Positions 49,995-50,753 of a stretch of DNA of 64,000 nucleotides are shown in pieces. Origin of the DNA: Aureispira sp. CCB-QB1 (GTDB lineage: Bacteria > Bacteroidota > Bacteroidia > Chitinophagales > Saprospiraceae). Where the stretch lies: positions 1 through 64,000 of the forward strand of contig CAMBRK010000001.1 of NCBI GenBank assembly GCA_945870185.1, read 5' to 3'. The notes under the pieces are model-generated. The model made no database searches, was not told the DNA's origin, and saw only the letters and a list, made by a program, of their open reading frames with translations. Made by a program: the position numbers and the translations under genes. Within the stretch, counting starts at the first letter, position 1, and each line of letters begins with the position of its first letter.

Positions 49995-50336
49995 ACTGGA
50001 TTTTGGTTGAATTTTTAATGATTATTCTTTTTTAGGAAATTCAGTTTAAAATTTACGGATGTGATGGCTAATTAGGCATTAGTGCTTAGATTTTTTTATA
50101 TTTAAAGGAGCGCAAAGTGAGATTTATTCTTATCACTTTGCTCTCCTTTACTTTTTGCTTTATACCCGATTTTGGGATATTTATAGCAGATTAATTTCAT
50201 TATTTTTCAAAAATGTAATATTTTTTAATCTATTTATAGTGAATAGATTATTTAATGACAACATTATATACATTAAAATTAAATAAATTTAAAAATTATT
50301 TAAAGCTACCTATTGATTTATTGAAAAATATACCGG
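49995..50336. other. Intergenic region before the metY promoter
   Basis: Contains the terminator of the TonB receptor operon at 50104-50149 and then AT-rich DNA up to the metY promoter at 50313-50344. No ORF of protein-like composition. Confidence 0.65.
50104..50149 (+). terminator. Strong terminator of the TonB receptor operon
   Basis: AAAGGAGCGCAAAGTGA (50104-50120) pairs with TCACTTTGCTCTCCTTT (50133-50149) with one mismatch in 17 and a 12-base loop, followed by CTTTTTGC. Confidence 0.9.
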
Positions 50337-50344
50337 TATCTTTG
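50313..50344 (+). promoter_or_regulatory. Promoter of the metY-metX operon
   Basis: A -7 box TATCTTTG (50337-50344) is the commonest form of the Bacteroidota consensus. A TTG at 50313-50315 stands 21 bp upstream as the -33 element. Transcription would start near 50351, 40 bases before the riboswitch. Confidence 0.7.
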
Positions 50345-50390
50345 TACGCGAAATAGTCAGTGTAAACTCTTCACAGTTTTGTTCTGAATT

Positions 50391-50487
50391 ATTTATACAG
50401 ATGAGGCGAGAGAAAAGGCTCAGCGACCCTCAGGCAACCTACAAAAAGTAAGGTGCCAATTCCTTCCCGATATTGGGACATATAAAT
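50391..50487 (+). promoter_or_regulatory. SAM-I riboswitch (S-box leader)
   Basis: The segment carries the SAM-I core: GAGGCGAGAGAAAAGGCTC followed by GCGACCCTCAGGCAACC, then AAGGTGCCAATTCC, the conserved kink-turn and SAM-contact sequences. The closing stem P1 is visible as ATTTATA (50391-50397) with TATAAAT (50481-50487). SAM-I riboswitches switch off methionine-synthesis genes when S-adenosylmethionine is plentiful, which suits its place upstream of metY-metX. Confidence 0.88.
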
Positions 50488-50505
50488 TTTTGAACTTTTT
50501 AAACC

Positions 50506-50634
50506 ATGAATTCTTTTCAAAATCTAAATCTAAGAAATGACTCACCGTCGCTGGGCAACGACTTTTTCACCACTCCTTCTATTTCTATGTGTTGCTGTTG
50601 TTGTAACAACGGAAGCGCAGCGTACATGATGTAA
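50506..50634 (+). CDS. Cys-rich leader peptide between riboswitch and metY
   Basis: A 42-codon ORF starting at an ATG 19 bases after the riboswitch P1 stem. It begins MNSFQNLNLRNDSPSLGND and contains 'MCCCCCNNGSAAYMM', with five Cys codons in a row (TGT TGC TGT TGT TGT, 50590-50604). Its TAA is followed at once by nine T residues. The Cys run sits in a self-complementary stretch (GTTGTTGTAACAAC, 50597-50610), and GCGCAG (50615-50620) can pair with CTGCGC (50698-50703) nearer metY. Nothing in the peptide suggests a stand-alone function. The layout is that of a translation-sensing leader responding to cysteine, added to a SAM-responsive element. Could be chance, but position and composition argue otherwise. 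Confidence 0.6.
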   Translation: MNSFQNLNLRNDSPSLGNDFFTTPSISMCCCCCNNGSAAYMM

Positions 50635-50753
50635 TTTTTTTTTATAAAATAAGGCTGTTTTTTATCATGTAAGTTGTGGATTCCCAACCAGGGATCTCTG
50701 CGCAACTATTTCTATTTGTAAAATTTATTTTTCAAACTTTAAATATTTTATCC

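Follow-up and report, generated by a model that had tools for sequence, protein, structure and literature searches.

Some composite leaders of bacteria read two signals. For instance, the Mg2+ leader of Salmonella mgtA carries the mgtL ORF, and metE can be preceded by tandem SAM and B12 riboswitches. To our knowledge, neither of these leaders joins a SAM-I aptamer to a leader peptide that senses an amino acid. In mycobacteria, attenuators that consist of a polycysteine short ORF have reportedly been tested by Canestrari in 2020.

Leaders with Cys codons have been described in Actinobacteria (PMC1262725, PMC4633059), and two further papers refer to the mycobacterial attenuators as tested, citing Canestrari 2020 (PMC13236596, PMC9094748). 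Within the accessible parts of these four sources, poly-Cys leaders of mycobacteria are on record, as a first reading of the present DNA from its letters alone (the sequence-only reading) had stated. Another relative is uORFC-8-2, in the cysS leader of Rhodobacterales, a Cys-codon uORF with a terminator for which ribosome-mediated attenuation has been proposed (PMC8632094, accessible part). In the literature searched, which included few subscription journals or preprints and no supplements, no account was found of the pairing of SAM-I with a Cys leader, of attenuators with both Met and Cys codons, or of the distribution of either in Bacteroidota. This agrees with the sequence-only reading, which had called a tandem of riboswitch and Cys leader apparently undescribed in that phylum. 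In Flavobacterium, leader-peptide candidates have been reported, without names, upstream of amino-acid operons (PMC9723704, accessible part), and single cases may therefore sit in the tables of that paper.

The metYX leader of Aureispira

The window, that is, the whole stretch of 64,000 nucleotides analysed here, contains metY for O-acetylhomoserine sulfhydrylase at 50754-52121 (TIGR01326, 666.5 bits against a cut-off of 495.1), followed at 52138-53214 by metX for a putative homoserine O-acetyltransferase, whose best match, TIGR01392, scores 337.1 and is below the cut-off of 500. Both genes, and all the leader features described below, are on the forward strand. Further on, at 53570-55045, there is an ORF of 491 amino acids with Asp-rich stretches near its end, by eye a likely surface protein.

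The SAM-I riboswitch that had been noticed upstream of metY is the single match to Rfam RF00162 in the whole genome (50390-50488, 72.3 bits against a cut-off of 44.4). It is preceded by a promoter box, TATCTTTG (50337-50344), of the Bacteroidota type TAnnTTTG, a consensus taken from the accessible part of PMC9723704. Such a box is found within 110 nt 5′ of SAM-I at 23 of 29 metY or cysH loci; of 29 control stretches within metY, one has it. Between SAM-I and metY lies an ORF of 42 amino acids (50506-50634; translation MNSFQNLNLRNDSPSLGNDFFTTPSISMCCCCCNNGSAAYMM), whose start codon is 17 nt past the end of the SAM-I model and some 160 nt downstream of the promoter box. Its five consecutive Cys codons, which the sequence-only reading had noted, are at 50590-50604.

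In effect, the remainder of the leader may be divided into the segments of a proposed attenuator, of which the Cys codons are the first. Segment 2, AACAACGGAA (50605-50614), has two possible pairing partners, the Cys codons and segment 3. The former pairing gives a 13-bp hairpin at 50588-50619 (1:2, -13.7 kcal/mol), and the latter a 2:3 duplex of -12.2 kcal/mol (shuffle p 0.066, from one sequence). Segments 3 and 4 form a hairpin at 50672-50707 (-13.0 kcal/mol), a candidate terminator with a U-rich but imperfect tail, and the relative L101 has, by eye, a similar stem. From the end of the Cys run it is 9 codons to the stop and 67 nt to this hairpin. In order and spacing, the four segments appear similar to an attenuator, a likeness that is not significant for one sequence. 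A standard terminator scan of the window leader found none, and the 3:4 hairpin was unchanged in the minimum-energy fold when a ribosome was masked at the first Cys codon.

Two other elements of the sequence-only reading were retained only in part. The Cys codons lie in a self-complementary stretch that does form a hairpin in the window, but as a shared feature this hairpin was rejected, as pairing of the Cys codons with the stretch that follows them is not general (mean duplex z -0.06 ± 0.10 over 88 loci). The nine T after the stop are present at 50635-50643; nevertheless, this run was not taken as a terminator because it has no adjacent stem and is absent from L101.

Compared with the systems above, as far as the accessible parts of those papers describe them, the window leader shares with the mycobacterial attenuators a short Cys-run ORF that is found upstream of sulfur genes and is common to several operons. 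By contrast, the mycobacterial ORF is leaderless, at the 5′ end of the mRNA, with its Cys run at the ORF end and with no riboswitch mentioned, while the present ORF belongs to another phylum and follows SAM-I, before metY. Similarly, uORFC-8-2 has two Cys codons, precedes cysS in alpha-proteobacteria and has no SAM-I, in contrast to the five Cys codons and metY of the window. With respect to other SAM-I (S-box) riboswitches, the aptamer is above the Rfam cut-off, and the ORF that adjoins it is a putative leader peptide rather than a metabolic gene. As in a trp-type attenuator, a short ORF with a conserved cluster of codons for an end product is present, with a similar layout behind it.

Distribution of the SAM-I and Cys-codon pair

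The SAM-I loci of the order were sorted by the next gene (232 loci, mostly of the host's family, among the matches listed). In this set, again among the matches listed, a short ORF carrying three or more Cys in a row was found before metY at 56 of 69 loci, the run being missing in 13, and before cysH at 4 of 4, where the two genes tested encode PAPS reductase. Before other met genes there was none at 121 loci among the matches listed (metH 0/29, metX 0/26, hom 0/10, metZ-like 0/27, metB-like 0/29). Loci without a gene assigned by rule gave 4 of 38 among the matches listed; counting L002, L007, L034 and L043, which are metY by eye and of which L007 alone has the run, the figure for metY among the matches listed becomes 57/73. 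The metZ-like genes match O-succinylhomoserine sulfhydrylase models best (one tested, below the cut-off), and their enzymes should use sulfide too, yet their loci have no Cys leader. A stricter density of at least 4 Cys per 8 residues is reached by 53 of the 69 SAM-I/metY leaders of the order and by 0.8% of dinucleotide shuffles.

A similar trend is observed in named organisms. The named metY loci, 80 in all, were located through their protein; Rfam detects SAM-I at 56 of them, and 40 of these 56 have at least 3 Cys per 8 residues (shuffles 5.4%) and 31 at least 4 (shuffles 0.4%); three of the 40 (L391, L405 and L420) look like chance ORFs because they have no ATG start. The named and unnamed sets overlap (L376, for instance, is L254), and consequently the order-level, named-locus and AUG-spacing counts are not fully independent. 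Identical stretches were removed for the terminator, start-structure, first-AUG, antihairpin and run-to-stop analyses. Carriers include Hymenobacter, Pedobacter, Mucilaginibacter, Sphingobacterium, Thermonema, Pontibacter and Psychroflexus, while the leader is absent from all three named SAM-I/metY loci of Algoriphagus. In the class sample outside the order, a Cys-rich ORF occurs at 3 of 7 SAM-I/metY loci, and at 1 (L374, with no clear next gene) of the 63 other SAM-I loci read. Thus, the Cys run, whose absence upstream of orthologous metY genes would have spoken against the sequence-only reading, proves to be conserved there, and judged from these sequences the pair recurs in many Bacteroidota, more widely than that reading had supposed. 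At class level, a search for the bare TGY pattern was swamped, most of the 30 loci read being a Gln repeat on the complement, in a longer frame.

In one genus (g4), the metY loci with SAM-I (L034, L043, L052) have no Cys leader, and the leader and SAM-I are found before cysH instead (L062, L063, L074). Individual loci of other kinds were also noted, the first three of them being the loci besides L007 that have a Cys run but no gene assigned by rule: SAM-I and a poly-Cys leader precede an OsmC-like gene in L085 and a peroxiredoxin gene in L088; in L103, SAM-I is followed by a Cys run, a short ORF and then a metX-like gene; and in genus g5 (L059, L066, L092) a long ORF that is none of the usual met genes begins within 10 nt past SAM-I.

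The position and frame of the ORF are kept as well. The leader AUG is 1-20 nt past the end of the SAM-I model in 92 of 102 leaders, and 6-12 nt past it in 66 of these, in a set that leaves out five SAM-I leaders without ATG (L107, L109, L391, L405 and L420). Of 82 distinct loci, 76 have a first AUG within 25 nt of SAM-I that shares the frame of the Cys run, with no stop in between, and five of the other six have a second, in-frame AUG within this distance. An antisense Gln frame open over 100 codons was found in 0 of 51. An AUG 3-14 nt past SAM-I also occurs at 16 of 26 metX loci. The sequence 5′ of the Cys run differs between genera, so that only the Cys codons and their position are kept across them. 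For instance, in an alignment of 11 Sphingobacteriaceae leaders mainly the P1 end, the AUG region and the Cys codons are kept; four leaders of genus g27 are 95% identical and little informative. On this comparative evidence, we consider the small ORF likely to be a conserved leader that reads Cys and is coupled to SAM-I.

In the host genome, four consecutive Cys codons occur at 33 places, of which 30 were read. Two are the metY leader itself, and the sole remaining place outside long frames, L180, has a Cys frame without a start codon; among the four-Cys-codon places read there is no second Cys leader. No NIR_SIR (sulfite/nitrite reductase) gene was found in this genome, which is 99% complete.

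Leaders without SAM-I

Cys leaders also occur away from the SAM-I/metY pair. Met-Cys5 codons were found at 43 listed places in 229 genomes of the family, and the reversed pattern at none among the matches listed. Thirty of the 43 places were read: 14 lie before metY, 14 before a nitrite/sulfite-reductase-type gene and one before cysH (29/30 together), and the remaining one is inside another ORF. The reductase type was assigned by motif, with Pfam NIR_SIR present in the two genes tested, and an Rfam scan of 13 reductase loci detected no SAM-I. In the class sample, most of 30 loci with Met-Cys-Met-Cys-Cys codons are within other ORFs, and those that resemble leaders are found before metY, cysH, reductases and an aldo/keto reductase. 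A metY-like gene is present in 13 of 33 family genomes that have no SAM-I; of these 13 upstream stretches, L294-L301 were read (L293 and L302-L305 being left out), and 7 of the 8 carry a leader in which Met and Cys codons both occur (MMMCMCC or MCMCCCCM, for example).

Several single loci of this kind may be mentioned. Two Met-Cys runs, 169-254 nt apart, are found upstream of sulfite-reductase-type genes in L503 (1500, 1754), L504 (1250, 1500), L506 (1331, 1500) and L510 (1500, 1671), all in leader orientation, and are possible tandem Cys attenuators. In L456 and L457, a Met+Cys leader and a strong terminator are upstream of an aldo/keto reductase gene. The most distant carrier found is a Candidatus Kapaibacterium MAG (L450), where a Met+Cys leader with a terminator precedes metY.

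From the 60 pattern loci (30 of each pattern), 22 leaders were chosen by a leader-like ORF and the next gene, before any terminator search; the leader-like L484 was omitted. A strong intrinsic terminator follows 19 of the 22; at -12 kcal/mol, none of 440 shuffles has one. An Rfam scan of 20 of them (L456 and L457 left out) gave a single SAM-I, in L459, which has no terminator. Moreover, an antiterminator can form between the 5′ arm of the terminator and the stretch directly past the control codons (mean z -1.91 ± 0.27, n=28, a set to which L492 was added and from which L297 and L298, without terminator, were left out), and the control codons of SAM-I-free leaders are at a near-fixed 58 nt (IQR 52-61.5) from the terminator hairpin. 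Because control codons, a strong terminator and a competing antiterminator pairing are all present, leaders without SAM-I look, from their sequences, like classical attenuators of the trp type. In this they are unlike the mycobacterial leaders, as these are described in the accessible parts of the sources, since they have strong intrinsic terminators and often mixed Met and Cys codons. In contrast to a trp-type attenuator, Cys or Met+Cys would be the signal, and the SAM-I-coupled forms mostly have neither terminator nor antiterminator. The window leader, by its layout, appears to be in between the SAM-I-coupled and the SAM-I-free kinds.

The near-fixed spacing also bears on whether these ORFs sense anything. 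A functional Cys-rich peptide, for instance one that binds metal, or an ORF that arose by chance would require no sensing at all. The window ORF has no Pfam or NCBIfam match and hence offers no positive evidence for such a function, and a constant distance from control codons to terminator argues against both options, as do the conservation across genera of Cys codons and position only, the failure of shuffles to reproduce a Cys-rich ORF, and its association with sulfur genes. We regard this explanation as very improbable and return to a Cys-reading leader.

The Met codons appear to be related to the presence of SAM-I. At least three Met beside the Cys are found in 7 of 13 SAM-I-free leaders, a group that includes likely chance ORFs without Met (L421, L447, L452) and a duplicate (L419/L295), compared with 11 of 92 SAM-I-adjacent ones (p 0.0013). 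The exchange is not strict, since in L491 and L502, two metY leaders without SAM-I, the control codons are almost only Cys.

Candidate mechanisms and the output step

We propose that the metYX leader comprises two sensors in series, SAM-I for SAM and the leader Cys codons for charged tRNA-Cys, the latter acting through ribosome stalling. With SAM bound, P1 would conceal the leader start, the leader would stay untranslated and the downstream RNA would adopt its off state. When SAM is low, the leader would be translated. If cysteine is then plentiful, the ribosome would complete the leader and depart, which again gives the off state; if cysteine is short, a stall on the Cys run would block the off state, and metYX would be made. 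In this scheme, metY would be on only with SAM and cysteine both low. What the sequences demonstrate is the anatomy of the leader and its conservation, its association with sulfur genes, and the attenuator layout of the SAM-I-free leaders; we infer that SAM is bound, that the leader is translated, that the ribosome stalls, which way the effect goes, and that SAM-I acts on leader translation.

Probably, then, Bacteroidota with the pair read both sulfur end products in one mRNA. A broader version of the proposal, to which we give about even weight, is that of a nested switch, in which the ORF regulated by the riboswitch is itself a tRNA-sensing leader, metY, sulfite reductase and cysH form a set of cysteine-reading operons in Bacteroidota, Met codons and SAM-I are interchangeable, and the presence of SAM-I shifts the output from intrinsic termination to another step. 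If true, this would be a widespread combination of a riboswitch with an amino-acid leader peptide, by which a branch-point enzyme answers both end products, as well as a candidate cysteine regulon of Bacteroidota without a protein regulator. Met codons and SAM-I, both of them RNA sensors of the same pathway, would apparently substitute for each other, and the logic gate would be directly testable.

How SAM-I acts may be judged from the terminators next to it. In the family, a terminator is present at SAM-I in 11 of 64 metY loci, as opposed to 8 of 8 hom and 9 of 14 metB-like loci; a further count gave 10/10 for hom and 24/29 for metB-like loci. That most metY loci lack a terminator of their own at SAM-I, unlike those of hom and metB-like genes, would fit an action of SAM-I on the translation start that adjoins it, here that of the leader, as would the AUG close to SAM-I at many metX loci. 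Whether it does gate leader translation we hold to be roughly a balanced question. Alternatively, the two sensors could be independent switches, SAM-I controlling its own terminator and the Cys leader lying separately downstream, with no nesting. This would suit the leaders that start more than 40 nt past SAM-I (several of them in Chitinophagaceae), 9 of 10 of which have a terminator directly past SAM-I, but among leaders with a close AUG, the kind found in the window, just 9 of 92 do. Two independent switches are therefore unlikely, and the following applies to the series arrangement.

For the leader itself, the candidates for the off state are weak intrinsic termination, as at the candidate hairpin of the window, Rho-dependent termination, and a translational step. 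Terminator-like sites follow 9 of 90 SAM-I-adjacent leaders (shuffles 3.4%). A hairpin about 30 nt past these leaders, at the position of the terminator in SAM-I-free ones, is stronger than in shuffles (median -11.3 against -8.4 kcal/mol, p 0.0004), with no U enrichment past it, and antihairpin pairing was not detected in 88 SAM-I-adjacent leaders (z -0.03 ± 0.13). With so few terminators, no U enrichment and no antihairpin pairing, this class gives little sign of a classical output. The lack of a clear terminator in most SAM-I-coupled leaders is another likeness to the mycobacterial attenuators, as far as the accessible parts of those papers describe them.

The distance from the last Cys to the stop is at most 2 codons in 79 of 88 SAM-I-adjacent leaders and in 5 of 30 SAM-I-free ones (p 1.1e-12, with one measure of distance for both sets). 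A stalled ribosome at the end of the ORF could thus cover a loading site for Rho, with the sensors as in the two-sensor proposal; once the ribosome departs, or when SAM halts leader translation, Rho would terminate before metY. The scarcity of U-tract terminators in SAM-I-coupled leaders is consistent with this output, as is a C-over-G skew of 0.39 in the last 60 nt before metY, compared with 0.05-0.23 before other SAM-I genes, and the same idea has been proposed, in the accessible part of PMC1262725, for mycobacterial Cys leaders without terminators. Nevertheless, the skew is merely 0.06 in the first 80 nt past the leader, the hairpin past the leader is stronger than expected by chance, and the window has an attenuator-like layout, with its Cys run farther from the stop. 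An output through Rho is therefore plausible, although we rate it somewhat below an even chance.

The accessible part of PMC1262725 likewise describes actinobacterial leaders that have their Cys run close to the stop and lack a terminator, and these features would fit translational attenuation as reported for mycobacteria, where the stalled ribosome opens a structure that conceals the start of the next gene, here metY. By contrast with those leaders, metY starts are unstructured as a class: the stretch that begins at -30 has less structure than expected from shuffles (z +0.64 ± 0.08), so that hiding of the metY start by structure is unsupported. Translational attenuation of this type seems rather improbable, and the structure that does exist is located instead 40-90 nt upstream of the metY start (z -1.13 ± 0.16).
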